Source: a virus | Length of the DNA: 64,000 bases | Reading direction: 5' to 3' (one strand) | IMG/VR virus record: IMGVR_UViG_3300007513_000004 | Span: 159,403 to 223,402 of that record | Position numbers and translations under genes: made by a program | The notes under the pieces: model-generated | Told to the model about the DNA's origin: nothing | What the model saw: the letters and a program-made list of their open reading frames with translations, nothing else | Databases searched by the model: none | Shown here: positions 39,906 to 58,181 of the stretch, one piece after another | Position numbering within the stretch: the stretch's first letter is position 1 | How the letters are laid out: the number at the start of each line of letters is the position of its first letter

Positions 39906-41978
39906 TTAGTCTGTACTCGCGCCCGCACGATTTCTAGTTCCCTGTCCAAGTTCATTACTTATTGTGGCTGCTGCATTTAATACCGATCCAGCCCTATCTG
40001 TCAAATCAATCTCTATAGAAAGCTTAGCAGCAAAAGCATCCGCTATTGCTACAGCCATGGCGTCTGCCAAGTCCCTCCTACTTGAAAACCCGGCCTGCTC
40101 CAAAGCCGATGTTGATGCCTCAGACGCCGCAAGCATAGATGCTCTCTCTATATTGGCAGGTAATTCATTCATATTTAAATTAAAATTATCAAGATTACCG
40201 CTCAAATTAGTAGCAGCCTCAACGATGCCGGCATTATCGGCCGGGCCCTCCATTGTCGCGGCTCGCGTTAACGTTCCAACATCCCCTCGGGTAGCGCGAG
40301 GAGCATTGGCCCCGCCTCCTGGTGCAGATAAAATTTGACTTATAGAGCTATCTCCCTCCAGGCCAAGACTGTCTAATGCGCTAAGCAGACTATCCTGAAG
40401 GCCGCCTGATCCGGCGGCTCCTATTCTTCCCCGAATAGCCTCTCCACCCGCCTGAATACCTCCCGTTAACTTTCTTCTGCCTGCCGCAGCCACGCCTCTC
40501 ATTCCTTCCAAAGCCGGTCTTGCCAAAACTGCTAACAAATTAGATTGAATTGCAAGCTGTTGATTTGCCTTTTCCCATTCATCAAGGGTTTTATCTCTTC
40601 CTTCCATCTCATTCTTTAATTGTTTTTCTAATTCTGCCTTGGTATCCACATCTCCAGATCTAGTTGCATCATCTAATCTTGAAAGCATGTCCAAAACACG
40701 AGTTGCTGACTTATCATCACCAACTCCAAATTGATTTTTTAACATCTGCTGCTGTATATAAAACTGATTCTGAAGCTCTGGAGACTCAGCTGCCTGCTGA
40801 ACAGTTACGATATCTCCCCCTGTAAACGAAGCAAGGGTATCTTTCATCCCCATTGCCAATTGAGCCCCTATATCTGATTGTTCTCCAGTCTGTTCAGCCT
40901 CCAGCATGGCCGCCTGCATTCCGATTGATGCTCCCAGCACTCCTGATCCGCCACCGCCGCCGATATCTAATCCACCTCTTTGAAATACAAGATAAGCATT
41001 TGCATAATTCGTTGTTAAATCTGCCAATGCACTAGTCAAAGTCCGCGTTAAATCAACAGCATTTTCAATTCCAAGCCCCATATCTTGCATTGTTCGTCCA
41101 AACCCTTCTAATATTGGTCTTCCAAAATCTGCTGACATTCCAAGCTTTTCGAACCCTTGTACTGCGCTATTCAATGTAGACGCAACAGTTGATGCTCTTA
41201 ATCCTGTTTCTTTTGCAACTGCACTAAATCCGCCGATCATCTCTGCAGCTTCTTGGGCGCTTTTTCCCTGCTTGTTCATAGCTGTATTGAAATATTCAGC
41301 ACCCTCGGATACAGATACGCCCATGGCAGCAGCTTGAGCTGCAGCAACAGCATAGAGCTTTGTTGACCCAATTCCCGTATCAACACTTTGATTTAACTGA
41401 TCTAATGATAAGCTGGTATTTTTAGTCGCCTCAACAAACCCTGTCATGGCATCTTTTGTAAGATACATAGATTGTGCAAATTGACTTGCCGTCTCTGTCC
41501 TTAAACCATCTGCAAATCTTTCTGCTTCGCCAATTGTGCTTCCAAACTGCTTTCCTAAGTCAAAAATGCCTTTATCATATTCTCTTAACGCTCTGGAGGG
41601 CCCGTCAAAAGTTTCTGCCAATAACTTAGCAGATTCAACAGCACCTTCTCCAAGCTCGCCAAGAATGCTCGTGCCAACCGACATGGCTTGAAACATAGCA
41701 TTTGCCGCGCTACCAACCCCTGGAATTTTTGAAGCAAGAGTTCCAAGAAAGCTAAGAGATTTAGAGCCTGCGTCTGTCATGCCGCTGATTGCCTCTGCAG
41801 CCTCCTCAAAGGCTGGAGTCATACCGCCGACCTTACTGCCACCAACTGACGAGCCAAGTTCAAAAATACTCTTTACAGAACTATTAAACCCCTCTGTAGT
41901 ATCCTTGGCCTCTTTCGCAGCCTTACGGTACGCCTCGACCTCAGCACGGAGCTGTGCAACCTCATCTTGAACGGACAT
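39906..41978 (-). CDS. Tail tape measure protein
   Basis: The 690-residue helical protein fixes tail length and may help DNA passage. Support comes from its place directly after the frameshifted chaperone, the N-terminal coiled coil (EVAQLRAEVEAYRKAAKEAKD), the alanine/glycine-rich hydrophobic helices at about 60-120 (LSFLGTLASKIPGVGSAANAMFQAMSVG), and the repetitive helical middle (SEGAEYFNTAMNKQGKSAQEAAEMIGGFSAVAKETG). A glycine-rich stretch GGGGGSGV occurs near 347. At about 0.15 nm per residue it would specify a tail near 100 nm, short for a phage with baseplate proteins this large. The ATG lies 6 bases after the end of the chaperone fusion. I see no lytic domain. Confidence 0.8.
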   Translation of the reverse strand: MSVQDEVAQLRAEVEAYRKAAKEAKDTTEGFNSSVKSIFELGSSVGGSKVGGMTPAFEEAAEAISGMTDAGSKSLSFLGTLASKIPGVGSAANAMFQAMSVGTSILGELGEGAVESAKLLAETFDGPSRALREYDKGIFDLGKQFGSTIGEAERFADGLRTETASQFAQSMYLTKDAMTGFVEATKNTSLSLDQLNQSVDTGIGSTKLYAVAAAQAAAMGVSVSEGAEYFNTAMNKQGKSAQEAAEMIGGFSAVAKETGLRASTVASTLNSAVQGFEKLGMSADFGRPILEGFGRTMQDMGLGIENAVDLTRTLTSALADLTTNYANAYLVFQRGGLDIGGGGGSGVLGASIGMQAAMLEAEQTGEQSDIGAQLAMGMKDTLASFTGGDIVTVQQAAESPELQNQFYIQQQMLKNQFGVGDDKSATRVLDMLSRLDDATRSGDVDTKAELEKQLKNEMEGRDKTLDEWEKANQQLAIQSNLLAVLARPALEGMRGVAAAGRRKLTGGIQAGGEAIRGRIGAAGSGGLQDSLLSALDSLGLEGDSSISQILSAPGGGANAPRATRGDVGTLTRAATMEGPADNAGIVEAATNLSGNLDNFNLNMNELPANIERASMLAASEASTSALEQAGFSSRRDLADAMAVAIADAFAAKLSIEIDLTDRAGSVLNAAATISNELGQGTRNRAGASTD

Positions 41979-41984
41979 TTTGCT

Positions 41985-42922
41985 TTATTTATCCTTTGTT
42001 ATATTAAATAATCTAGACATATCTTTCGGCATCCTCGTACTCCTAGCGTCTCTAGGCTTGTCTCCAGTATTACCTTGTAAATTAGTATTTTTATACTTAC
42101 CCCGAATAGACTTAACCAATTCATCATTCTTTCTAAATTCTTCTTGAAGTATTTGTCTTTCGAATTCTTCATCTGAAGCAAATCTGTCATCATCCTTAGA
42201 ATCTCTAATATTTCTAATTTTTTGCACAGCTTCAGAATTCCAGAACGAAGCCAAATATTCAGCAAGATCTAGATTATATTCATATTTGTTTTTTTCATCT
42301 TCTTGCAACATTTGGGCGTACCAAAGCCATTGAGCTTCGCTGATATTCTCGAAACGCTCATCGTCAGAAGTGCAACTCCATGTCTTGCATAGAGCCCAGC
42401 GGAGCCTGCTGATTGGCTCCTCGGTTATACTTTTAAATCTTCTAAACCAATCTCTTCACTAGAGGCTGCTACAAGCTTTTCGTATATTTGATATACTCTT
42501 TCAACAACAACTGACTGCATGTTAAGAACAACATCCAACCTTCTCTCTGCAACGCCCTCTAACTCTTCATTTGCACAAAGATCTTCTAAAGGAACTCCAT
42601 TTACCGACTCAATAACATAAGAAACAGTAACAGGCTTTATGTCTAGCAATCTATCTATCTGATCAAATTGCATCACTGTTTGCATAATTTCCTTTTGCTG
42701 CTTTGTAGATAATGTGGTTATAACAAATTTATATCCAACTATATCCACAACCTCATTTATCTTTCCTAAAAAAATTAAATTTTTCAAATCATCTAGACCG
42801 AGCATTGTTTCATTTGTTTCTTCTTTACGATTGTCGTCTACAACGGGCTCGATCTCTTCTAAGCTATCTTCTTCATTACTTGTATCATTAGAACGACTAA
42901 TCGTGGCGGTTCTCTTTGGCAT
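41985..42922 (-). CDS. Tail assembly chaperone, -1 frameshift fusion product (gpG-gpT type)
   Basis: Reading frame 0 from 42922 reaches the slippery heptamer at 42437-42431. A -1 shift there passes into a frame open to the stop at 41985. The fusion is 164 + 148 = 312 residues. The join reads LEDLK then SITEEPISRLRWALCKTW, DDERFENISEAQWLWYAQM and a charged helical tail. The second frame has no start codon or ribosome site near its beginning; its first ATG (42311) falls inside the WLWYAQM segment, which looks like the core of a folded domain. In lambda and many other tailed phages the G and GT forms, made in unequal amounts, coat the tape measure and recruit tube subunits. Position between tube and tape measure fits this exactly. 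Confidence 0.82.
42397..42437 (-). promoter_or_regulatory. Programmed -1 ribosomal frameshift signal: T_TTA_AAA slippery site plus hairpin/pseudoknot
   Basis: On the minus strand TTTAAAA lies at 42437-42431, in zero frame read T TTA AAA, a canonical X_XXY_YYZ heptamer. After a 10-base spacer comes GGAGCC (42420-42415), an 8-base loop AATCAGCA and GGCTCC (42406-42401), a GC-rich 6-bp stem in AT-rich DNA. The loop tetramer CAGC can pair with GCTG (42400-42397) directly after the stem, giving an H-type pseudoknot. The zero-frame TAA is inside the spacer. Confidence 0.82.
42425..42922 (-). CDS. Tail assembly chaperone, unshifted short form (gpG type)
   Basis: The 165-residue zero-frame product terminates at TAA just after the slippery site. 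The N-terminal 45 residues are acidic and polar. The rest is helical (NLIFLGKINEVVDIVGYKFVITTLSTKQQKEIMQTV and VEGVAERRLDVVLNMQSVVVERVYQIYEKLVAA), consistent with tail chaperones that bind tape-measure helices. AAAGGAG precedes the ATG at 42922. A hairpin terminator lies between this gene and the tube gene upstream, so the chaperone and tape measure are likely expressed at a lower level than sheath and tube. Confidence 0.8.
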   Translation of the reverse strand: MPKRTATISRSNDTSNEEDSLEEIEPVVDDNRKEETNETMLGLDDLKNLIFLGKINEVVDIVGYKFVITTLSTKQQKEIMQTVMQFDQIDRLLDIKPVTVSYVIESVNGVPLEDLCANEELEGVAERRLDVVLNMQSVVVERVYQIYEKLVAASSEEIGLEDLKV

Positions 42923-43009: not shown

Positions 43010-43037
43010 CTTTATAATTTAATTTAATTTTTGTATA

Positions 43038-43673
43038 TCAACTATAAGCTGCCGAAATAAGACCCGGGAAGTCCAAGGGACCTCTGCGGTCGCCCATATC
43101 CGCAGCCTGCTCAACTGCATCCACATCGATCTTGGAGGCATCGACCTCTCTGCTGCCACCCACGCCTTGGCTGTTTGCAACCGGCTCGTGTGCTCGCTTG
43201 GAAGATATGAATTCACAATCAATACCAGCAGATTCTGCAATAGTATAATCAGAAGTTTGATAAGTCTTTGATAAATTATTGAACCAGCAATTATGATAAG
43301 TCGTTATAACCGCATCATCACCGTCTCCTGTAAACTTATCAATAACCACTATATCAAACGGCATTCTTTGAGCATGAATATTCTTAAAGCCTCTGGCAAA
43401 AGATTCAGGCAAAGATAAGCCATCAAATACAATTCTGTTAACCTGCAAAGAGAACTTTGCCGGAGACTGAGGAACTAACTCTATTATGCCATCAGTTCCA
43501 ACTTCCGAAATAGGCTTGTTAGATCTTGACTGAGTTTCTTGAAAAGACTGGATCGCGCCGACTGGCTCGCCATTGACATAAACAATAACCTGCGTTGATA
43601 GACCGGTTCTAGTCTTTGCGCCTGTAATTGTAGCGCTATCAAATAAAGTTGATGTATTTGGATAATCTGCCAT
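43038..43673 (-). CDS. Tail tube protein
   Basis: The 211-residue product follows the sheath gene by 12 bases and precedes the chaperone, the expected place for the tube subunit. The sequence fits the tube beta-barrel: VIVYVNGEPVGAIQSFQETQSRS, then SPAKFSLQVNRIVFDG, KNIHAQRMPFDIVVIDKF, TTYHNCWFNNLSKTYQTSDYTIAESAGIDCEFISS. Such tubes stack as hexamers inside the sheath. The C-terminal ~45 residues (AHEPVANSQG to AAYS) are polar and possibly extended, beyond the core fold. ATG at 43673 is preceded by AGGAG. A strong terminator follows it. Confidence 0.87.
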   Translation of the reverse strand: MADYPNTSTLFDSATITGAKTRTGLSTQVIVYVNGEPVGAIQSFQETQSRSNKPISEVGTDGIIELVPQSPAKFSLQVNRIVFDGLSLPESFARGFKNIHAQRMPFDIVVIDKFTGDGDDAVITTYHNCWFNNLSKTYQTSDYTIAESAGIDCEFISSKRAHEPVANSQGVGGSREVDASKIDVDAVEQAADMGDRRGPLDFPGLISAAYS

Positions 43674-43685
43674 TATTTTCTCCTA

Positions 43686-46600
43686 TTATATGACCCCAAC
43701 TTCTATATCTATAAAGATGTAATTTATAGGATAAGCTGGAGAGAACTGTAAAAATACGTTAATCTGTCTTGGGTCAACCTTATCTTGTTCAACCCTAACA
43801 TTCTTATACTGAGTGACCAACCCTTGAGCAATTAGTGCCGACATAATCGAACTAACCCTAGCTCCAACAAGGTTGTTTGTATCTCCGCTTTGTACTCCGC
43901 CTATAAATCCCTTAAGAGAGTTTCTCAAAACTCGTTTAACGGTGTCTCTAATGAAGATAATAGAGATTTCTTCATCCTCAACAAATCCTGATTGACTTGT
44001 TGTTCTGCCTGCCAAAACCTTTCCGCCTCCGGTTACTGGCTCAACAACTGTTGCGCCGACGTTACCAAGGCCATTTAAAATGACAGGTCTAAAAATCTTG
44101 TCTCTGGTTAATGCAAATCCAGATAATGTCTTGTATGTTAACGGAAGAGCTACATTCTGTCTTGCCGATAGCCACCCAGAAGCTGCTGCGGCCATATAAA
44201 ACCCGTGTAGATTAACATTTGTTCCATTTACATTTCTAACAATCGTATCTGGGAACATATAAACACATCTGTTGCTCGTATAGTTATCACTTAGCTTGAA
44301 GTTTACAAGGTCTTCCACATTATCATCAAGAACCTCTTCTGGATCATCTCCCTGAATTCCTTCAAGAATTCCGATATCTTCGACCGCAACCTCTTCTGTT
44401 CCGATTAAAGCAGCGGCTGAAACCCCCATTTGCGCTCCGATAAATGCCACCCTCTCCATCCTGTTTGCAACAGAACTCATGTTCTCACAGTGATTAACTG
44501 TTGCTCTAAAGATTGAAGAAATAGCCTGAGTTGGAAGAGGTACGATGATTTGAGCATCCGCAGCCTCAAGCGCCTCAAGCGCGTTAAACCAATTTGTATC
44601 AAAATAATCTGAATCATTTTCGTCTACATAAGAAATCTTAAGACCATCACCATCCTGAAGAACGCCGCTAGTTACAAGATCTTCATGAAGAAGAAGACAA
44701 GCATCATCAGGGGTGCTAGAAGGATCCTTGATGAAGAAGTTAATATCTTCATATTCAGCCGCAAGAGTTATAGCCTCACCATCGCTGGCCCTCACAACAT
44801 ATGCTTTTGAATCATCTGTTACTGCGCTTATTGTAAGCTCGACCTCATCAACTCCATCATTATCCAGCCCCAGCGCTCCAGAAACCTGCTCTTTACTTGT
44901 TAAAGCCGTTCTGCTATCCCAAGCTTCTCCGGCATTTTCCATGCTTGTAACGACAATTGTCATCCCAACATGTTCTCCGTCAAAATCAAATTCTGGAGTT
45001 GTGAAGTAAAATCCATCATCATCTTCGGCAATTTCGCCTTCGATTCCATTTCCAACAATGTCCTCATCTATATTTACAACCGTATATGAGAAAGCATTAT
45101 CAGAACTTCCTATCCAATTATATTGCTGGATATCTGATTCAAGCTGAGAGTTATAAAAGTCTACTTTATTCGGGAAAACCTGTGTTTCTTCGCCATCTCT
45201 TACAATAAAAATGTTAACCCTAGAGTCTGCATCAGGTCGGCCATTTCTAAGGCCTGTAATTGGTCTTGAGATAACGAACCTAAGATCATCTACTTCGCAA
45301 CCAGATCCACAATCTGGAAATCCACCGACTCCCAAAGAATCTCTTTCTTCTAATAGAGTTGCGGTTGTTCTTCTTGGGATTGCAGGCTTGCATTGAAGCG
45401 CAAGAATTGCTGGCGCCCCATTCTCCATGGCCATCTGTGACCCAAGAGAAAGAGTGTTGTCTTCGCTTGGGTTTCCGTGCTTCGTAAATAATGAATTAGC
45501 ACCTGTAAAAAACTCTGGATCATTAAGATCACCTTCGAAAACATATTTTGCCTCTAAGTTATCGCCCAAAGCTAAAGCTCTTGAGTTTACATCAATATAG
45601 AACTTATCCCCCACCTCGAATGGAACCGCACCCTCTTCTATTCCTAATAGTAAAATTCCATTATTTTCTAACATATGGAATGTAAGGCCTGTGTCTGATA
45701 AACCACCGGTACCCTCTAAGTCTGGAAGGCCTGTACTTTCATCGTCAAGAGCATGAAGTCTAAGCCTTCTGGTTGAAGTAATTGCGCTAACAGTATACCT
45801 GCCTCCATTGGAGTTCGTTCCTGCGCACATCACCACAGTCTTTCCTACATCGCCGCTTGTAAAGCTGCCCTCAGTAGTTGGCGCTCCAGTTGTAGTATTG
45901 TGAAGAACATCCTCATCATCTATCAACAGGTTTGTCGCCCGGATCTCCCAATCCATATCAGTCCAATCGGCGGGGCCAAGACTGTCTGTAGTAAGAGTTA
46001 TTGTTGTGTCTGTTCCATCATATTCTAAATCTTCTATTTCATATCCTGCATAACCATCTATGCATAAAAAGTCTCCCGCCATGGCCTGACCCTGAGTAAC
46101 AATATCGGCACCAGCAACAACAAAAGTATCAGTCGTAGATTCTGTTTCATCCCCACTCTTTAGAGTTGCAGAGCCCTGGGGGAATGCAAGTCCGGAGACA
46201 TCTCCGTAAGCTACAACAAACCCATCTGTGCATTCGTCTGAAGTTCCAGAGATTGCTCCATCTCCACTGGTGTAATATGAACTGTGAAAGGCCATCGGGC
46301 TTCCTGCGGAATCATAAATCTGTCCAGATTCAGACCCTGTAACGCTAAACGTGGCCAGCCCAGGAATGGGATCGCCATTTGAATCTCTTACGACACTTAC
46401 GCATCTTACGGTCCACCTCTCTGCCGGAGCAGAGTCATCAAGTACATCCAGGGTAATAAACGGATCACAACTTGCATCTTCAATGATTGTTCCCGTTCCT
46501 ATATTCATACTTGCTGCAGAATATCCCTTTCCGTCCTGATCGCCAATAGAGGCTCCCTGCAGCTCAATGCATCCTGTTGCAGGATCTAATCTAAAGTCAA

Positions 46601-46928
46601 AGGCTGAATCAAAACCATTTGCATCAATCTCATCTTCCTTTCCAAAAAGAAGAGTTCCGTTTAATCGAAGCTCTGTTCTTCCGCTAACGACAGGAATGTT
46701 TTGAAGCTCAAAAAAGCGCCCATCACCGCTACCGGTGGGGCTGCAATCTGCCGCTCCATCCTCTCCGCCGCCTGCTGCGGCCTGAACAATGGTCTCCTCC
46801 CTGAGGCCTTCGCCCATAACACAAACTATTCTTATTCCGCCTGGGATAGAGACCCCACGGGAAAGAACCCTATCTCTTGCAAATGCTCCAGGCTGAATGA
46901 AACCTGAAATGCCGGGTATATTAGCCAT
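43686..46928 (-). CDS. Contractile tail sheath protein, enlarged with inserted domains
   Basis: The N-terminus (ISGFIQPGAFARDRVLSRGVSIPGG) and the C-terminal ~310 residues identify a sheath. Near 770-1080 are FDTNWFNALEALEAADAQIIVPLPTQ, FYMAAAASGWLSARQNVALPLTYKTLSGF, and the final domain with GGGKVLAGRTTSQSG, IIFIRDTVKRVLRNSLKGFIG and NVFLQFSPAYPINYIFIDIEVGVI. The last strands are those that sheath subunits exchange with neighbours. At 1080 residues it is much longer than T4 gp18 (659). The extra ~450 residues between the ends are acidic beta modules that probably project outward. GGAGGATTTATA precedes the ATG at 46928, a strong ribosome site fitting high expression. It is followed by the tube gene. 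Confidence 0.92.
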   Translation of the reverse strand: MANIPGISGFIQPGAFARDRVLSRGVSIPGGIRIVCVMGEGLREETIVQAAAGGGEDGAADCSPTGSGDGRFFELQNIPVVSGRTELRLNGTLLFGKEDEIDANGFDSAFDFRLDPATGCIELQGASIGDQDGKGYSAASMNIGTGTIIEDASCDPFITLDVLDDSAPAERWTVRCVSVVRDSNGDPIPGLATFSVTGSESGQIYDSAGSPMAFHSSYYTSGDGAISGTSDECTDGFVVAYGDVSGLAFPQGSATLKSGDETESTTDTFVVAGADIVTQGQAMAGDFLCIDGYAGYEIEDLEYDGTDTTITLTTDSLGPADWTDMDWEIRATNLLIDDEDVLHNTTTGAPTTEGSFTSGDVGKTVVMCAGTNSNGGRYTVSAITSTRRLRLHALDDESTGLPDLEGTGGLSDTGLTFHMLENNGILLLGIEEGAVPFEVGDKFYIDVNSRALALGDNLEAKYVFEGDLNDPEFFTGANSLFTKHGNPSEDNTLSLGSQMAMENGAPAILALQCKPAIPRRTTATLLEERDSLGVGGFPDCGSGCEVDDLRFVISRPITGLRNGRPDADSRVNIFIVRDGEETQVFPNKVDFYNSQLESDIQQYNWIGSSDNAFSYTVVNIDEDIVGNGIEGEIAEDDDGFYFTTPEFDFDGEHVGMTIVVTSMENAGEAWDSRTALTSKEQVSGALGLDNDGVDEVELTISAVTDDSKAYVVRASDGEAITLAAEYEDINFFIKDPSSTPDDACLLLHEDLVTSGVLQDGDGLKISYVDENDSDYFDTNWFNALEALEAADAQIIVPLPTQAISSIFRATVNHCENMSSVANRMERVAFIGAQMGVSAAALIGTEEVAVEDIGILEGIQGDDPEEVLDDNVEDLVNFKLSDNYTSNRCVYMFPDTIVRNVNGTNVNLHGFYMAAAASGWLSARQNVALPLTYKTLSGFALTRDKIFRPVILNGLGNVGATVVEPVTGGGKVLAGRTTSQSGFVEDEEISIIFIRDTVKRVLRNSLKGFIGGVQSGDTNNLVGARVSSIMSALIAQGLVTQYKNVRVEQDKVDPRQINVFLQFSPAYPINYIFIDIEVGVI

Positions 46929-48635: not shown

Positions 48636-51600
48636 CTAGTAATCATCATCTGATACGTTATTCGCCTCTACGTACCCATAGAATGTAGAGTTGTTCAGTC
48701 CAGACTCAGCCCCAATACCATAAGGGCCAGTCGTTTGGTCTGTTACATTTATTGAAATGTTTCCATTTATAATAACATTATTAACGTAGCTGCCGCCATC
48801 CCAATAAATAGCCCCGTCGCCCCAGCCTATAGAATCAAAAAAACAATCTTTTACAATCAAATTGCCGAAATATAGCCCAGAACCACGGCCCTGCCTAACA
48901 GCCCACTCCCATGGCTCAGCGTCATTTACACTAGTCCGTGTTCCATTGTCAATTCCTATACAATTTATTTTAGAAAGCCTAAAAGTAGCCTCTGGAGAGC
49001 TGGTTGAGCTTCCAGTGCTAGATATTTCTTGAGCTACTTCAACAATAGAGCCTCGGTCTGTAAAGGATTCATGCTGTTTATATGTAAAACTTTCAAGCGT
49101 TACTCCATAAACTATATCCTCAGAAGAAGATCTGTTTCCGGGCTCTCCTCCTCCTATATAAATTAACACACTTTGATCAGCAGAACTTCCACCGACCAGC
49201 AGCTCTCCGCTTCGCTGTATTATAGTGTTTGGCCCAGCGCCGCTAAGTATCAAGTCAAAATCAATAATAATTGTTTCAGAAACATTATATGTCCCTTCTT
49301 TTAGAAAAATATTTGGGGTTCCCATTTTTGGAAATAATTTTGAAAACATTCTCGCATAATCTACGGCAGCCTTAATATCTGTAAAGTGTCCAAACCTTTG
49401 ATCATTGGCAACCGTTATATCACCAATAAGCTTATGGTCAATATGATCTATAAACAATCTAAGATCTGTTACCGTTGTTGTCTCCCCAGAAGTATCTACT
49501 TCCACATAAGCAAGATTTGCTACGGCCTGACCCGCAAATGGCGACACATACTCTGCACCAGCACCTGCTCGATCAACCTCGTTTTCAACAATAATACATC
49601 CACTTCCATCCAAAGCTATATAAAAATTATCTGTATCATTATAATCCTCAACACCCCCATCGTATTTGTAAACAAGATCTGTAACTCCCAAGTATTCAAA
49701 CCTTACACCGTTTACTACTGCAACTCCTGGGTTTATAGTTATCTTGCATGTACTGCTATCCACATATGTAATGCTATCTATATCTGTAGCTCGAATTACT
49801 CCGCTTGTTCTTAATTCATTTCTTGGACCCTGTATGTATCTTTCAAGAAATGCTTCTCCAATGATTGTATCATCAACAGTTCCTGTGATTCTTTTGTTCC
49901 TTACAGTCGGAACTGCTCCACCGGTTTCAGATGCAGATCCTAAAATAAATCCAAAATCAGCCGAATAAACCCCTCTGCACAAATGCAACACGCTACTTGG
50001 AAGATCATCATAGCCTATTAACACCGATGTCTGTTCTGAAAGTGGCGGGCCTGATGCTAAAACCTCCAAAACTATATACGACATCTTATCTCTGGAAAAA
50101 ACCTTATATTCTCCGGTTGCACCCACAAAGGTCTCCTCCCCCTCACTCCCCGGCGTCACATCATAAGGGGGCGTTGTAGACTCTCCAACCGTGGTTCCCA
50201 AATAAGCCATACCATCGGTTGTTACTGTTACAACATAAATATCATCCGCTTGAATAAAGCCTCCTGACACATCTGAAACAATGGCATAAAATCCGGCTGT
50301 TTCAATATGCCTTACAGTGTCTAGTTTCTTTTTATAAAAAATATCTTTATTTTGATCAACGAATACATCAAACATAATAAGACCATCGGTCTCAAGAAAC
50401 TCCATCTCTCCGATTGGGGCTGTACACCTTATTACAAAAACTGAAGAATCATCCGAAATCTCCCCTTGTAATGCTGGAGTTCCAGATGTAGGATCCAATA
50501 TTATTGTATTTGCAGATACATTACGAATTCTGAAAGTACCATCGTCTCCAGATTCTGTAGAGCCGTCAATTACACATAAATCACCAGTTCTAATATCATC
50601 TGCTATAAAGTCTGTAGATACAGAGCTCAAATACATTGTTCCTGCAGCAATAAGTATAGAGTCATCTCCATACTTCTTTATCTTTCCAAAATCTTCTAAA
50701 AGTCTTCCATTAATATGATAAGCGTTTCCCCCAGAGCCTTCAACCTCTCTGTCCAAAAGATATGATAGCCCCAAGACTTCTGCCGCATCAGTTGTTGCTG
50801 CGACCAATTTGATTGTTCTGTTTTTAGAATCTTCTGCAAAGCTTGGCAAAACGTGCGTAATTGCCAACTCATAACATCTTAATGATCTTATCTTATATGC
50901 AAAAATGTTTAAGTTATTAGCTACAGCATAATCATTTATTTTAAAAACAATTGTATCAAGATTTTGAATATCAAAGTCTTCATCATAAACTGTTATCTCA
51001 ACTGTATCTCCTCCGTCTATTTCCAAGGCAATCATATCAGCCACGCCATCTTCAAGACTCGTTGGCTTTATTCCGGACGATATAATTGTTGCTGCATTCG
51101 GAAGGGCCACTTGAACATCTGGCGTATTAGATTTATCGTATCTAGGTCTAACGCTACAGTTTAATCCATTCTCATTATAATTTACAAATTGATTTTTAGT
51201 TATCTTAGCCGTCGTTCCTTCTTCAATCTCATTTACTGGACCGCCAAATATCATTACATAATCTACATCACCTTCGTCGGTCAATGCTACAGATGCAATT
51301 AAATATTCTGTATTATCTTCTTCAAACGAAGAATCTACAACGGAAAGTATATCAAAAGGCTTTGGGGCGGTCGTTGGTGTTGGCGGGGTTGAAAAAGATA
51401 CTTTAGATGTGCTTTTATCATTTGGACCATCATAAATTATTTCGCTGGCCTCTGTCAGCAGCGTGCCTATCTCATTCCCCTCCCAGGCATTATAGGAAGA
51501 ACCCGTTCTTATTATTCCATTCGAATTGAAGTTAAGATTTGAATTTCTGAGCCCCTCTCCTTCCAATTCTGCTAAATCATCAATGGCTCCTTGAACACTT

Positions 51601-52259
51601 GATGAGCTAATTAAATCTGAAGTTTCTTCATTGCTATAATATATCTGTCCCGCAATATGAGAATTATTATTTGCGCCTATACTTTCACCGGTATAGTTCA
51701 TATGAGCATTATAAATTTCTTCCAAAATCTCCTGAAGAGTTCCCTCTCCAAGAGCCATCGTTGCATCGGAAGACTCCTCAGCCTCCGCTGCTTCTACGGC
51801 TATTGCTTTGGCATAATGTCTATTTATAGCATCATCATGAACGTGTGCCGAAACAATCGCATTAAGCTCTTCAAGGGTTATAATAAACGCATCTAATCTG
51901 TTGTCCAAAATAGAAATTTGATCTTGCAGCAAATGAGTTGGAAAGTTTAATCGTAATTTGCTTTCATTAATTGCCGCGACTTTTGATACGTCTGTATCTG
52001 TAACAGGGCCTGAAAGAACATTCGATCTATCCAAAGCTTCTTTTAATATATTTCCATTTTCATCCAAAGCATTTGACAGCCTTGCCGAAACGGTATTTCC
52101 GGTTGCTCCTTGCGGATTTATACCCAGAGCCTTTTCAATATTAAATATTGCAGACCTAAGACTATTAAACACATCAGAGCCTATCTCGGTAATATTATCT
52201 CTAATTACCGGGATCTCTACTGATGTATCTAATTCATTTGGATATTTTGATTTTGGCAC
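48636..52259 (-). CDS. Beta-helix fibre protein, shorter paralogue
   Basis: This 1207-residue fibre starts with GTG at 52259 (GAGGATAAC ahead). Its first ~130 residues are nearly the same as those of the upstream 1970-aa gene (PKSKYPNELDTS, GINPQGA-GNTVS, NGNILKEALDR, AAINESKLRLN), so they share a virion anchor. Later segments are also homologous (HVH and NRH motifs, SVQGAIDDL). A small beta module lies near 555-585 (TGDLCVIDGSTE, DDGTFRI). From about 956 to the end is a right-handed beta-helix of pectate-lyase type (FTDIKAAVDYARMFSKLFP, NIFLKEGTYNVSETIII, LILSGAGPNTII). It stops in the helix region and lacks the long C-terminus of its paralogue. It may bind or cleave a host polysaccharide; no catalytic residues were identified. 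Confidence 0.8.
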   Translation of the reverse strand: MPKSKYPNELDTSVEIPVIRDNITEIGSDVFNSLRSAIFNIEKALGINPQGATGNTVSARLSNALDENGNILKEALDRSNVLSGPVTDTDVSKVAAINESKLRLNFPTHLLQDQISILDNRLDAFIITLEELNAIVSAHVHDDAINRHYAKAIAVEAAEAEESSDATMALGEGTLQEILEEIYNAHMNYTGESIGANNNSHIAGQIYYSNEETSDLISSSSVQGAIDDLAELEGEGLRNSNLNFNSNGIIRTGSSYNAWEGNEIGTLLTEASEIIYDGPNDKSTSKVSFSTPPTPTTAPKPFDILSVVDSSFEEDNTEYLIASVALTDEGDVDYVMIFGGPVNEIEEGTTAKITKNQFVNYNENGLNCSVRPRYDKSNTPDVQVALPNAATIISSGIKPTSLEDGVADMIALEIDGGDTVEITVYDEDFDIQNLDTIVFKINDYAVANNLNIFAYKIRSLRCYELAITHVLPSFAEDSKNRTIKLVAATTDAAEVLGLSYLLDREVEGSGGNAYHINGRLLEDFGKIKKYGDDSILIAAGTMYLSSVSTDFIADDIRTGDLCVIDGSTESGDDGTFRIRNVSANTIILDPTSGTPALQGEISDDSSVFVIRCTAPIGEMEFLETDGLIMFDVFVDQNKDIFYKKKLDTVRHIETAGFYAIVSDVSGGFIQADDIYVVTVTTDGMAYLGTTVGESTTPPYDVTPGSEGEETFVGATGEYKVFSRDKMSYIVLEVLASGPPLSEQTSVLIGYDDLPSSVLHLCRGVYSADFGFILGSASETGGAVPTVRNKRITGTVDDTIIGEAFLERYIQGPRNELRTSGVIRATDIDSITYVDSSTCKITINPGVAVVNGVRFEYLGVTDLVYKYDGGVEDYNDTDNFYIALDGSGCIIVENEVDRAGAGAEYVSPFAGQAVANLAYVEVDTSGETTTVTDLRLFIDHIDHKLIGDITVANDQRFGHFTDIKAAVDYARMFSKLFPKMGTPNIFLKEGTYNVSETIIIDFDLILSGAGPNTIIQRSGELLVGGSSADQSVLIYIGGGEPGNRSSSEDIVYGVTLESFTYKQHESFTDRGSIVEVAQEISSTGSSTSSPEATFRLSKINCIGIDNGTRTSVNDAEPWEWAVRQGRGSGLYFGNLIVKDCFFDSIGWGDGAIYWDGGSYVNNVIINGNISINVTDQTTGPYGIGAESGLNNSTFYGYVEANNVSDDDY

Positions 52260-52268
52260 GTTATCCTC

Positions 52269-55200
52269 TTAACCGCAATGGTATGTGCATCCAACAAATG
52301 CTTTTTTATAGGTTTGACCATCAAACTCAAATTCAACACATTCATAATTATTACTATTTAAATCAAAATTACAATCTTGGGTAATCTTTGCCACAGTATA
52401 GTTGTGAAGCAAATCATCATCTTGCCTCATACCATAACCAGGAATTTCGCAAGTTGTTATGTAATCTCCATTCTCCAAATCACCATTTATATTACAAATC
52501 CAAACAGCACCTTCTCCTAGTGAGTTAATAATCAGCCTTTCATCATCCTCTTTTTTTGCATAAGAAGATACGAATGCTCCTATCGAATAAGATCTTGTAT
52601 CACTGCCTTCATCCTCCATATCAGATATTACTCCAAAAGCTTTTTTATCATTTCTTACACTTGATAGCCCAACCTCTGGCAATGATTCATTTATGCTAGG
52701 CTTTTTTAATCCATCTAGATTACTATAAAAACCCTTTGAAATAACTATCAGCCCTATGTTGTCCTTGTCGTGCAAGGCTTTATCCCCCAGAGATCTATGC
52801 TGACCTGTAAAGTTAAGCTCGTCTACATTATTTGCCGGATTTAAATATGCTCGAACACCATCGAAGGAACCTCCATAACTATTTTTATGATGAAAGGCTA
52901 ATACGTTTGAGTTTCCATCGTATGAAGATCTCACGTGTATTGTCCATCTAACATCTGCCGTACCGGCAAGGATTCCGTCATCACCGCCATGGGTTGCATA
53001 CTGATGAATCCTTATTCCTGAGTTGCTATCATCGTCAGATTGAAACACATCAAATCGCCCATTCTTCATAGCCATTCTAAATTTTTCATCAAAATTAGTG
53101 CCAAGCAGACCAGTGTTAAATGGATCTTCATCTACATTATATGGCCCAAAAGCTAAATTACTATAGGTATCTGACGATGAAGACCAATATGTTGCTATAT
53201 CTCCATACATAGATGTAGAGCCAGCCTTTATAAAAAGACATGGTCCCTCCGCCTGGCTGCCTGCAACATTTATTACCCCAACCTGATGACCTGGACTGCT
53301 TACTGATAAAGAATCATATATAGCAACATTTCCGGTTCTATCTATATACAAGGCCTTGCCATAGTCGGTCCACAAGCTCAAAGTATCATCGTCTGCAGCG
53401 GATCCAATCAATGTTTCAACGCCACTGCGGATAGCGAAACTAACATCGTCTATAGTAATGGATCCACCAACATTGAGATCGCCTGTGTTCACGGAACCAC
53501 TAACATTCAACCTGTGGCCATCAGGTGTCGTGGTCCCTATCGCAACGCCACCACTGCCATTGGCACACATCATAAGATCACTATCTCCAGAGTTTTGAAG
53601 ATGCATTGAAGAAGAAGCGGAACCATCTCTGGCCAATATCTCATTGGCATCGAATGCTAGATGATCACCGCTTGTATCTCCTACTATTAAGATTCCGGTA
53701 CTATTTGACTCACTTATTTCGTCCGAACCTGTGGTGCCTCCATAAACATATAACGGCACTTGAGAATCGGCCACCCCTATCCCAACTCCATCTTCAGTTA
53801 TGGTCAAACTATCACTTAAAGATCTTCTGTTGATCTTGAATACCGCCGAATCAGTTGTAGAGCTACTTCTTGTTCCCATTACAAATTGGCCATTGGAGGC
53901 AGGCGTGTCTCCATCCCACTCGATAAAGCCACCATGGTTAAACACGCCCGCATCTCCGGAGCAATCCTCAACAAACTCAATTCTTGATGAACAGTTTCCT
54001 CCCCCAGCATCGGGCGATCCCAGTCTAAACACCACATCATCACCAATGAGGTGAAGATTTGGCTGAGTTGTTGATGGACTTGAGTTTTCAATCGTTATAC
54101 TTTCTGCTATAATATCTGTTGCTGCAATATTTGTAACAGCAAGCGTTTCAATGGGAAGAAGCCTATCTGACCATTCATGATTGCCGTCATAGTCGATCTT
54201 GCCCGATCCTGAGCCATCATTATCAGCACATATGTTTCCAACTATTTGTATATTATTTATTGCAGGACAATCATCAAAGTCAAAAATATTTTCTCCAGCA
54301 ACATACGAGCCAACCAGCGGATCGACATAAGCACAATGAATAAGATAATTGTCCATCCCATCCACCACCATATCCGTTCCACCGGGAGCGATTCCTGACC
54401 CTCTAGAAACATTATTTGATATATTTATATTTCTAATATTTGCTGCAGCAAAATCATCAAACTTTATTGCTGAATTTAAAAATTGACAATTTGTTATAGA
54501 GATATTTCCTGCGCCATGATCTGTCGCCTCTTCCAGCCTGTCATGAGCCTCAACTATAATTCCGCCATAGCTAATGTCGGCAGCACCGTCAGCGCCCTCA
54601 TCACACTCTGATGAGTCAAAAATAACATTATCAATGTTAACTCCCCAATTTAGCTTATAGCCTTCCGAATCTGAAAGATGATTTGGGTCTTTAATAGATG
54701 GATCTATAATATTTATAGAAGAAAGTCTCATTCTGAAATTGCTTAAATTCACAAAGCCATTATTTATTACATCCATGTCCATATCTGGCACAGAAGAGCT
54801 TATAGTCGGATCAAGGCCATATGCATCATCATCAATGGCCATTCCAGGTCCTGCAATTTTTATACCAGACCAATTATCGGCGCTTCTTGAGACCAGCCTA
54901 GTATCTAGATCGTTAGAGTCATCATATATGTCGGCTATATCTATAACTGTCGAATATCCTTCTCCAACTATATTTACGGGAAAGTTTATCCATATACCTT
55001 GATTTAAATGTCTTGCATTAAGAGTTTTGTTATCGGTTGTTGTTCCAGAGTCCTCTGCGTGATCAACAATGACCCTATGAGTTCCAGACTTCAGATGAAT
55101 CGTCGGAACACCAGCGCTTGAATATGCTTCAGAAAATCTTTTCGCATACTTGAGAGCTTCATTGATTGTTAAAAAGTGTCCCATACCTCTTTGCGGAGAT

Positions 55201-58181
55201 ACGGTAATTGAATTAAGAATTCTTAAGTCTAATTGGTCAATAAATAATCTCAAATCAGTTGCAAAAGGAGGATCTCCAATAGTGGTGTCAGAACCATCTC
55301 CATTGTATTCTACAGTACATAAGACGCAATAATCATACGGATCAAATGGTGAGGAACAAACCCCGCTTGCTCCAGAGGAGTTTGAACTAGCAAAAACAAT
55401 CTCTCCCCACTGGTTCATGGCTACAAAAAATTTATCTGTATCGGGAGAAGGCCCCCAAGGAGAGTTGATTCCTGTTATCAAATTATTTCTTGCGCTTATT
55501 TCAAATCTTTTTCCCTTCACATAACAAACGCCACCCGCTATATCTATAACATAATGTCCGTTTACATTTATTGACTCATGATCATCCAAGTCAGTATAGG
55601 GCGTTAATAAGTCCGTGCTAGAGTCAAGAACCGATGTTGTCACCTCAAGCCCGCTGACTACACCATTTGATCTAGTTTCTCGAATAGGCCTTTGCTGCAT
55701 TGTGTATATGGCATCAGTTCCAAGATCCTTGTGTCCAACATTTCCTCTGCGCAACTTTGAAAAAAGCCTAGGATAATCAGTTCCAGCCCCGGAAACTCTT
55801 GAGGATCCAGCTTCATAATGCGATCTTGCAATGAGAAGATTTTGCCCATCATTTACCTCCTCAAACCCATAAAGACCTATAGTGGTAGCAACTCCAGACC
55901 CAGCGGCTCCAATGTCATCATCTATCTGTGCCGATATAGCAGAAGAATCCTGAATAAACAATGTAAGCTTTATATCATACTTTCCAGAAGATACCTCTAT
56001 ATAAGAGTTTGAAAGACTGCCCAGAATAACTGGATCGCCTCCATCTAAGGCTATTAAGTCAACTCCATCTACAGTCCTCTCTAACGTTAGCCCCTCTCCA
56101 GATGCTGCCGAATACACAGAGACATCCCCAGCAAAGTCTACTACGGCCACTACGTTCGAAACAGTATCTCCATCCCCCGTGTTGGATAAGGCTCCATATA
56201 TTAATCTTCTATTATAAAAAACACTTCTATCATAATCCATAAAAACATCTATAATTGCAACATATGAAGATCCGTCTATCTCGCTAAATGCCATATCTGC
56301 CAATGATAATGAATTTTTAAATATATAAAACTCTGTACTTTCATCAGAAGATCCTGTCCAAGCCCCGCCTGACAGTTGGTTTGAATCTACACCAACCTTG
56401 GACCCTGACTCATGAACGCTTGTTACGAGATAAGTTCCATCGTCAGCGCTAGATTCCGCAATGACCAAAAGGTCTCCTACACATATCGCTTCTTCTAAAA
56501 AGTTTACAGAAGTTGACGATATCTGTGACGATCCAGACAAAAGCTCCAACCCGGTCTCTGCCAATTTTGTACCAAGACCGTTATAAGCTTTGCCCTGTAT
56601 ATAATATCTTGTTCCAAGACCAGCATCTATAACTGAGTCTTCATAATCTGATAAGCCCATAGAGTCAAGGGCGTCATCGGATCCTCTTGAAACTTTTAAT
56701 GTATAAGAATTTGTAGCAGAACTTTCTATAGAATGAACAAATGCAATTTCAGAAGGCTTATTCTCATCATAATCTATTCTGTATGCATAAACGCTATAAC
56801 CTCCAGCCGAGAATTGTTCATTTAGCTTTTTAAGAATCGTATCAACCGTTTGTACTGTAGCTTCTCCATCATAAACATCCAAATCAATGGCGGTTCCTTC
56901 GTCAATTGTTATAGAAAAATATCTATTTCCTTCGGACCCTATTCCGTTTATTTCCGAAGGCCTTATTCCGTTTGTTATAATTGCTGCGGCTTCTGGGTTT
57001 GCTATTTGCAAAGTATCTGCATTAGAAGTTGGAATGCCAGATTCGTCATAGGCCTCATACTCTCTAACTGACACAAGCAATCCGCCAAGATTTGCTTCTT
57101 TGTTTGTGTTTTGATAAATTTTTGCCGTAGTATCAACCTCTGCATCTTCTCCGAATCTTGCAAAAACATATACTCCTGTTATTTTGGTCTCATCATCAGG
57201 GTCGTATACAACTTCGCTAATCTGATATTCTGCAGTTCCAGACTCATCTGTTATTTGTAATATATCAGACTTTTTAATGCTTATTTCAGGCACATCTTGT
57301 GCTGTATTAAAACCAATATGATGGCCCTGAGGCGACTCATAAGATATGCTTGCATAATAGGTTATGCCAGTACTATCCAGTATCAGCTGTCCTACGTCAT
57401 CCTCAAGAGAGGATACAAGCTGACCAGTTCTTGCTACTCCATTATCATGCTGATGATTCTGGTGATCATCAAGCTGACCAACGGCATGTGCCAAGATATC
57501 CTCTATAGCGCCCTGAACATCATCTGAATCTATATAGGCAGAAACATCTGTTGTATCAAAAAATAACTGATCAGCTTCGTGTGATCTGTTTGATATCGAT
57601 ATATCACTTCCATCATAATTTATATGCGATTGAAAAACTGACTCAAAAGCATCTTGCGATGTTGTAATATCTAAAGATGTAATTCCAGTTGAAGAAGAGG
57701 TATTATCAATAGCCTCTATAGTAATTGCCTGCCCCTTGTGTCTATTTGTAGCAGAAGTATGCACATGGGCATTAAACAAAACTGCAAGCTCATCTATTGT
57801 AGCAAGCATGGCATCTACTTGATTCATCAATTGAGATACTTCGTCTTGCAATAATTGCGTTGGATAATTTAAACGAAGCTTGCTTTCATTAATAGCGGCA
57901 GTTTTAGAAACATCACTATCAACAATTGGGCCACTTAAAACGTTCGCCCTATCAAGGGCTTCTTTTAATATATTTCCATTGCCATCTATAGCCTTATTGA
58001 GTCTGTCCGAAACAGTATTCCCAACAGCTCCTTGCGGATTAATACCCAACGTTCTTTCTATCTGAAATAAAGCAGATCTTATACTATTGAGGACATCAGA
58101 GCCAACCTCTATGATGTTGTCTCTAACTGCCGGTATTTCAATAGATGTATCTAATTCATTTGGATATTTTGACTTTGGCAT
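52269..58181 (-). CDS. Beta-helix fibre protein, long paralogue with distal head
   Basis: This 1970-residue protein shares its N-terminal anchor and first ~900 residues' layout with the next gene. HVHTSATNRH and DDHQNHQHDNG are His-rich motifs of a kind that bind metal in other phage fibres. A beta module lies near 560-600 (VGDLLVIAESSADDGTYLV). A pectate-lyase-type beta-helix spans about 995-1360 (FLTINEALKYAKRF, TIHLKSGTHRVIVDH, INFPVNIVGEGYSTVI, and later NISITNCQFLNS). Beyond it are repeated GxGxIxxGT-like segments and a C-terminal domain of ~110 residues (LGEGAVWICNINGDLENGDYI, PGYGMRQDDDLLHNYTVAKI). I associate that ending with marine-virus fibres. It is likely the main tailspike or long fibre. 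ATG follows GGAAGAG. Confidence 0.8.
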   Translation of the reverse strand: MPKSKYPNELDTSIEIPAVRDNIIEVGSDVLNSIRSALFQIERTLGINPQGAVGNTVSDRLNKAIDGNGNILKEALDRANVLSGPIVDSDVSKTAAINESKLRLNYPTQLLQDEVSQLMNQVDAMLATIDELAVLFNAHVHTSATNRHKGQAITIEAIDNTSSSTGITSLDITTSQDAFESVFQSHINYDGSDISISNRSHEADQLFFDTTDVSAYIDSDDVQGAIEDILAHAVGQLDDHQNHQHDNGVARTGQLVSSLEDDVGQLILDSTGITYYASISYESPQGHHIGFNTAQDVPEISIKKSDILQITDESGTAEYQISEVVYDPDDETKITGVYVFARFGEDAEVDTTAKIYQNTNKEANLGGLLVSVREYEAYDESGIPTSNADTLQIANPEAAAIITNGIRPSEINGIGSEGNRYFSITIDEGTAIDLDVYDGEATVQTVDTILKKLNEQFSAGGYSVYAYRIDYDENKPSEIAFVHSIESSATNSYTLKVSRGSDDALDSMGLSDYEDSVIDAGLGTRYYIQGKAYNGLGTKLAETGLELLSGSSQISSTSVNFLEEAICVGDLLVIAESSADDGTYLVTSVHESGSKVGVDSNQLSGGAWTGSSDESTEFYIFKNSLSLADMAFSEIDGSSYVAIIDVFMDYDRSVFYNRRLIYGALSNTGDGDTVSNVVAVVDFAGDVSVYSAASGEGLTLERTVDGVDLIALDGGDPVILGSLSNSYIEVSSGKYDIKLTLFIQDSSAISAQIDDDIGAAGSGVATTIGLYGFEEVNDGQNLLIARSHYEAGSSRVSGAGTDYPRLFSKLRRGNVGHKDLGTDAIYTMQQRPIRETRSNGVVSGLEVTTSVLDSSTDLLTPYTDLDDHESINVNGHYVIDIAGGVCYVKGKRFEISARNNLITGINSPWGPSPDTDKFFVAMNQWGEIVFASSNSSGASGVCSSPFDPYDYCVLCTVEYNGDGSDTTIGDPPFATDLRLFIDQLDLRILNSITVSPQRGMGHFLTINEALKYAKRFSEAYSSAGVPTIHLKSGTHRVIVDHAEDSGTTTDNKTLNARHLNQGIWINFPVNIVGEGYSTVIDIADIYDDSNDLDTRLVSRSADNWSGIKIAGPGMAIDDDAYGLDPTISSSVPDMDMDVINNGFVNLSNFRMRLSSINIIDPSIKDPNHLSDSEGYKLNWGVNIDNVIFDSSECDEGADGAADISYGGIIVEAHDRLEEATDHGAGNISITNCQFLNSAIKFDDFAAANIRNINISNNVSRGSGIAPGGTDMVVDGMDNYLIHCAYVDPLVGSYVAGENIFDFDDCPAINNIQIVGNICADNDGSGSGKIDYDGNHEWSDRLLPIETLAVTNIAATDIIAESITIENSSPSTTQPNLHLIGDDVVFRLGSPDAGGGNCSSRIEFVEDCSGDAGVFNHGGFIEWDGDTPASNGQFVMGTRSSSTTDSAVFKINRRSLSDSLTITEDGVGIGVADSQVPLYVYGGTTGSDEISESNSTGILIVGDTSGDHLAFDANEILARDGSASSSMHLQNSGDSDLMMCANGSGGVAIGTTTPDGHRLNVSGSVNTGDLNVGGSITIDDVSFAIRSGVETLIGSAADDDTLSLWTDYGKALYIDRTGNVAIYDSLSVSSPGHQVGVINVAGSQAEGPCLFIKAGSTSMYGDIATYWSSSSDTYSNLAFGPYNVDEDPFNTGLLGTNFDEKFRMAMKNGRFDVFQSDDDSNSGIRIHQYATHGGDDGILAGTADVRWTIHVRSSYDGNSNVLAFHHKNSYGGSFDGVRAYLNPANNVDELNFTGQHRSLGDKALHDKDNIGLIVISKGFYSNLDGLKKPSINESLPEVGLSSVRNDKKAFGVISDMEDEGSDTRSYSIGAFVSSYAKKEDDERLIINSLGEGAVWICNINGDLENGDYITTCEIPGYGMRQDDDLLHNYTVAKITQDCNFDLNSNNYECVEFEFDGQTYKKAFVGCTYHCG

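Follow-up and report, generated by a model that had tools for sequence, protein, structure and literature searches.

A probable −1 frameshifted tail assembly chaperone gene with a conserved downstream stem in large contractile-tail phages

Phage lambda is a siphovirus whose tail chaperone gene carries the slippery sequence G_GGA_AAG. In the lambda scheme, most of the product is gpG and a minority is the G-T fusion, and assembly around the tape measure protein depends on the ratio of the two (PMC5009743, whose passages on gpG and gpGT review Levin 1993 and Xu 2004). For T4-like phages, the passages on them in PMC5009743 and the account of Vladimirov 2022 cited in PMC10885494 report a mechanism other than frameshifting. 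The only clear relative of the gene described here in the annotated phage collection is gp181/gp182 of Bacillus phage G (JN638751), which is also the sole relative from a cultured phage that we found. Its G and T parts are both homologous to ours (26% identity, E 1e-9), and the annotation gives it as a joined CDS for a tail assembly chaperone, with the tape measure gene next in order.

The gene lies in a stretch of 64,000 nucleotides (the window), which is part of a 223-kb virus record. It is highly probable that this is a −1 frameshifted chaperone of the lambda G/GT type, stimulated by a downstream hairpin, in a contractile-tail phage. The initial annotation had proposed a tail chaperone frameshift at this site, and the proposal is now backed by homology, gene order, predicted fold, conservation of the slip site and codon freezing.

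The overlapping frames and their neighbourhood

The junction between the two frames consists of the following elements.

42425–42922 (−), zero-frame open reading frame of 165 aa, a gpG-like tail assembly chaperone (G)
42431–42437 (−), slippery heptamer T_TTA_AAA
42425–42427 (−), zero-frame stop TAA, one codon after the heptamer
41985–42431 (−), T-like extension in the −1 frame (T), 148 codons and a stop

An AGGAG ribosome-binding site is located upstream of G. The register at the slip site is GA T_TTA_AAA, followed by GTA and the TAA stop, in agreement with the heptamer and early stop read previously. The open −1 frame begins at 42455 and is closed by a stop whose last base is 41985. Its first codon, AGT, re-reads the last base of the heptamer, and the predicted fusion is 312 aa long with the junction peptide EDLKSITEEPISR. 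As had also been claimed, the 148 codons lack a start of their own: none of the first 39 is ATG, GTG or TTG, the earliest such codon is at 42311, and no ATG occurs until 117 nt into the frame. The conserved T motif ISRLRW...QWLWY is upstream of any start codon. The number of TTTAAAA copies in the window (42, with 38 expected) is at the chance level and was rejected as evidence; the case thus rests on arrangement and conservation.

A scan of IMG/VR with a C-terminal alignment produced 60 loci, of which 44 are distinct at the element. The contigs of this family are up to 497 kb long, and phage G is a member; a search of genome contigs for relatives found none. A canonical in-register heptamer is present at the junction in 43 of the 44 distinct loci: A_AAA_AAA in 19, A_AAA_AAC in 13, A_AAA_AAG in three, T_TTA_AAA only in seven, and both kinds, overlapping, in one. 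The sole exception, L069, has G_GGG_GAA TAA and retains the downstream stem (L069:640-712). Throughout the family at most one codon separates the heptamer from the zero-frame stop. The seven sequences with T_TTA_AAA only, that of the window among them, form one supported clade, in which the heptamer is positioned three bases further upstream than in the other loci. Both the slip site and the stem are identical in relatives down to 70% amino acid identity.

Two other explanations of the T frame have to be considered. T might arise through termination-reinitiation, or its translation might begin at a non-standard start, given that the zero-frame stop and the second frame overlap closely and that the second T codon is ATG in L039, L040 and L065. 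These are the only loci with such an ATG, however, and all three retain the heptamer. In the window and most relatives no ATG, GTG or TTG precedes the conserved T core, and a separate start would leave the persistence of the heptamer across the family without a reason. A second frame forming a separate gene with a start of its own, which the initial annotation had named as the observation that would speak against it, is not the rule among the homologues, and we rejected this explanation as very improbable. The broken frame might also be a sequencing or assembly error, or a degraded single gene; nothing beyond the broken frame itself suggests this. Three other IMG/VR records contain exactly the same junction, which is also conserved in diverged phages, one isolate genome among them. 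An error or degradation is already refuted by these records, and its probability is negligible.

The neighbouring genes that define the context of G and T are listed here.

43038–43673 (−), tail tube protein, the upstream neighbour (PHROG 985, virion structural protein, E 3e-12)
39906–41978 (−), probable tape measure protein, 690 aa, from position and composition
43686–46928 (−), tail sheath (PHROG 2839, E 2e-16)

The G protein of the window matches the PHROG tail assembly chaperone family 2792 weakly (E 0.004), and its relatives match PHROG tail assembly chaperone families better (up to 5e-5); a Pfam search with G and T gave no usable match. The AlphaFold2 model of G is confident over its core and matches phage G gp181 (E 7e-8) as well as other annotated tail assembly chaperones. 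Its best match in the PDB is the HK97 chaperone 2ob9, a weak one (probability 0.95, E only 0.21). The model of T, which is less certain than that of G, matches phage G gp182 best (fold E 2e-3). The PHROG families, the homology to phage G and the fold place the G part among the tail assembly chaperones. Where the flanking sequence is long enough, G is almost always preceded by a tube homologue. The probable tape measure frame begins 6 nt past the T stop, at the position of the phage G tapemeasure protein gp183; no family match was found for this 690-aa frame. The presence of a sheath gene shows that the tail is contractile. As in the lambda type, the chaperone gene is positioned between tail tube and tape measure, an in-register slippery heptamer is found near the end of the zero-frame reading frame, and the downstream −1 frame is open and conserved and has no start of its own.

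Several other properties of this region were observed. The sheath protein has 1080 residues and is matched by sheath families in its C-terminal part only, so that it has a large extra region. Two large adjacent genes on the minus strand, 48636–52259 and 52269–58181, are paralogues in tandem: their products share 34% identity over about 1000 residues and have N-termini that are nearly the same. They probably encode tail fibre or baseplate proteins. A hairpin with a T tail, resembling an intrinsic terminator, is located at 43013–42981 (−) between the tube and chaperone genes, and the relatives that were read have a strong hairpin of partly different sequence at about the same place upstream of G. 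Past this hairpin, at about 42975–42935 (−), there is an AT-rich motif, AAGTAAAATAATATAGCATTTTTAGTATAAC, slightly altered copies of which immediately precede the ribosome-binding site of G in L018, L019 and L007; it is possibly a phage late promoter.

The downstream stem

42415–42420 (−), 5' arm of the stem, GGAGCC
42401–42406 (−), 3' arm of the stem, GGCTCC
42423–42424 (−), CC, which may pair with GG at 42397–42396 across an internal loop

The GC-rich stem GGAGCC-N8-GGCUCC that had been noted earlier has 6 bp and an 8-nt loop and begins 10 nt past the heptamer, a longer spacer than usual. Its arms are supported by conservation, by folding and by a codon-resampling control, in which the protein was fixed and the codons were redrawn at window usage in 20,000 sequences: only 70 of these had a 6-bp stem in range. 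The combination of heptamer, stop, open frame and stem is not due to chance.

In 41 sequences aligned without indels, 84% of the cells over 8 positions are paired, compared to 32–52% in slid controls. At three pairs both sides have changed, and the covariation exceeds that of all 500 shuffles, a figure inflated by the relatedness of the sequences. That the arms are GC-rich coding sequence accounts for the small number of compensatory changes. RNAalifold recovers the same six base pairs. The z-scores of the minimum free energy are modest (−1.0 to −2.3) and were not used as main evidence, and a search of Rfam returned nothing. Taken comparatively, the family supports this first stem, and the stem claimed initially has withstood the analysis, with its conservation and some compensatory change added.

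The strongest evidence for the predicted stem is the freezing of codons. The six sequences nearest to the window have 37 columns in which the amino acid is invariant and degenerate; 11 of these keep a single codon, and nine of the 11 form a contiguous block over the element (hypergeometric 4e-7). The corresponding run test with four sequences gave 118 of 50,000. Family-wide, the glutamates of the 5' arm are encoded by GAG in 31 of 31 cases. The leucine of the 3' arm is encoded by CTC, which accounts for 3% of the leucine codons of the window, in 35 of 41 sequences, whereas five codons are used about evenly for the leucine four codons further on.

The stem varies in its outer part. It is about 10 bp long and begins close to the heptamer in some relatives, such as L032; in the clade of the window, the internal loop with the CC/GG pairs takes the place of this outer part. 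With this extension the calculated energy is −13.9 kcal/mol, compared to −11.9 kcal/mol without it. The stimulator of this clade is most likely a stem-loop, to which the CC/GG extension possibly adds, bringing the structure to 6 nt from the heptamer.

Two candidate pseudoknots

42397–42411 (−), CAGC (42411–42408) and GCTG (42400–42397), a second pairing that is not accepted here

The initial annotation had drawn an H-type pseudoknot, in which CAGC of the 8-nt loop pairs with GCTG abutting the 3' arm of the stem, and this structure would stimulate the frameshift. The letters are indeed present, and both tetramers are invariant in the six nearest sequences, down to the little-used codons ATC, AGC and CGC. 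Stem and 4-bp second pairing together arise seldom in the resampling control (8 of 20,000). Across 37 distinct sequences, however, CAGC/GCUG shows no excess over shuffled pairs on any measure, and its invariance in the nearest six makes it uninformative there, leaving the second stem without the comparative support that the first one has. The pairing is lost in L022, the next sequence out. In ordinary H-type geometry zero linker bases cannot span a first stem of 6 bp, so that the first stem of the drawn pseudoknot would have to be partly melted. The second helix is also weak (−3.5 kcal/mol) and competes with a fold, GGAGCC/GGCUCU with CAGC/GCUG nested inside, of −13.7 kcal/mol. A stimulatory pseudoknot of this form is thus improbable. 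The nested fold itself was rejected as the stimulator: its energy is near that of the hairpin, and L020 and L021 lack the second copy of GGCUC, showing that it is not clade-wide. Also rejected was a longer-range pairing of the loop, UCAG/CUGA at +31, which is no better than in codon-resampled sequences (p 0.57). The frozen loop and CGC codon in the nearest six make a role of the loop in the window's clade possible.

The simple hairpin remains the preferred stimulator in the window's clade, and a better H-type candidate than CAGC/GCUG is found in a different branch. In 15 sequences among L042–L068, the loop GGCAY can pair with GUGCC 26 nt past the stem; the loop encodes P-W-H or near equivalents, and the first linker has 2 nt. 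The valine that provides the GUG is encoded by GTG in 15 of 15 sequences, compared to 10 of 107 other valines in the same gene segments (5e-13 in a naive Fisher test, the 15 sequences being related). This valine and the stem leucine are the only codons that do not vary throughout the set, and the valine two codons past it is GTG in only one of 28 cases. Four sequences that have the valine and lack GGCAY in the loop use GTT, GTA, GTT and GTG. In L060, GGCAT is kept, but CTA (leucine) takes the place of the valine and the pairing is lost. Compensatory changes in this second helix were not found in the related set. On the strength of the codon pattern, GGCAY/GUGCC is a strong candidate for an H-type pseudoknot in that branch; the pairing is absent from the window's clade.

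Proposed mechanism and comparison with known systems

A −1 slip very probably allows the phage to produce two forms of its tail chaperone, one long and one short, from a single gene. The majority of ribosomes would translate the 165 residues of G and terminate at the TAA. A minority would pause at the hairpin, the tRNAs in the P and A sites would re-pair from TTA-AAA to TTT-AAA, and the slipped ribosomes would read on in the −1 frame to give the G-T fusion. By analogy with lambda, many copies of G and few of GT would coat the tape measure protein, T would recruit tube subunits, and neither protein would stay in the virion.

On balance, the pattern of slip sites and stems in the family favours one −1 element inherited from the ancestor of this large contractile-tail lineage. 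Its A_AAA_AAN heptamer would have become T_TTA_AAA, moved by three bases, in the window's clade, and a separate branch would have the GGCAY/GUGCC pseudoknot. If this is true, the type of stimulator has switched within one orthologous frameshift gene. The well-understood frameshifting of tail chaperones is extended here to large phages with contractile tails, a broad group of which most are uncultured, and the stem past the slip site is preserved across very large phages that had previously been a scattered group. Aligned, the loci show how slip sites and stimulators vary naturally within a single gene, which can help to test how the G:GT ratio is controlled. The 312-aa fusion deserves annotation. 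As the phage G relative was already annotated as joined, only the new members, the shared element and the branch-specific stimulator are novel.

The window and phage G share the order of tube, G, GT and tape measure, as well as a slip immediately before the stop. Phage G differs in its heptamer, A_AAA_AAC, in a different short stem and in a much longer tape measure. In common with lambda gpG/gpGT, the window has a −1 slip near the 3' end of G, a T part without its own start, a location between tail tube and tape measure and, by prediction, an HK97-like chaperone fold. Unlike in lambda, the tail is contractile, and no sequence similarity to the lambda proteins was detected. Another contractile phage, P2, provides a parallel: its tail gene E/E', which precedes the tape measure gene, also has a −1 frameshift (PMC5009743). 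The T4-like phages share with the window a contractile tail and a tail chaperone role. They are reported not to use frameshifting, however, whereas the slip site of the present family is conserved and its T frame is startless. This contractile-tail family thus follows the lambda/P2 pattern instead.
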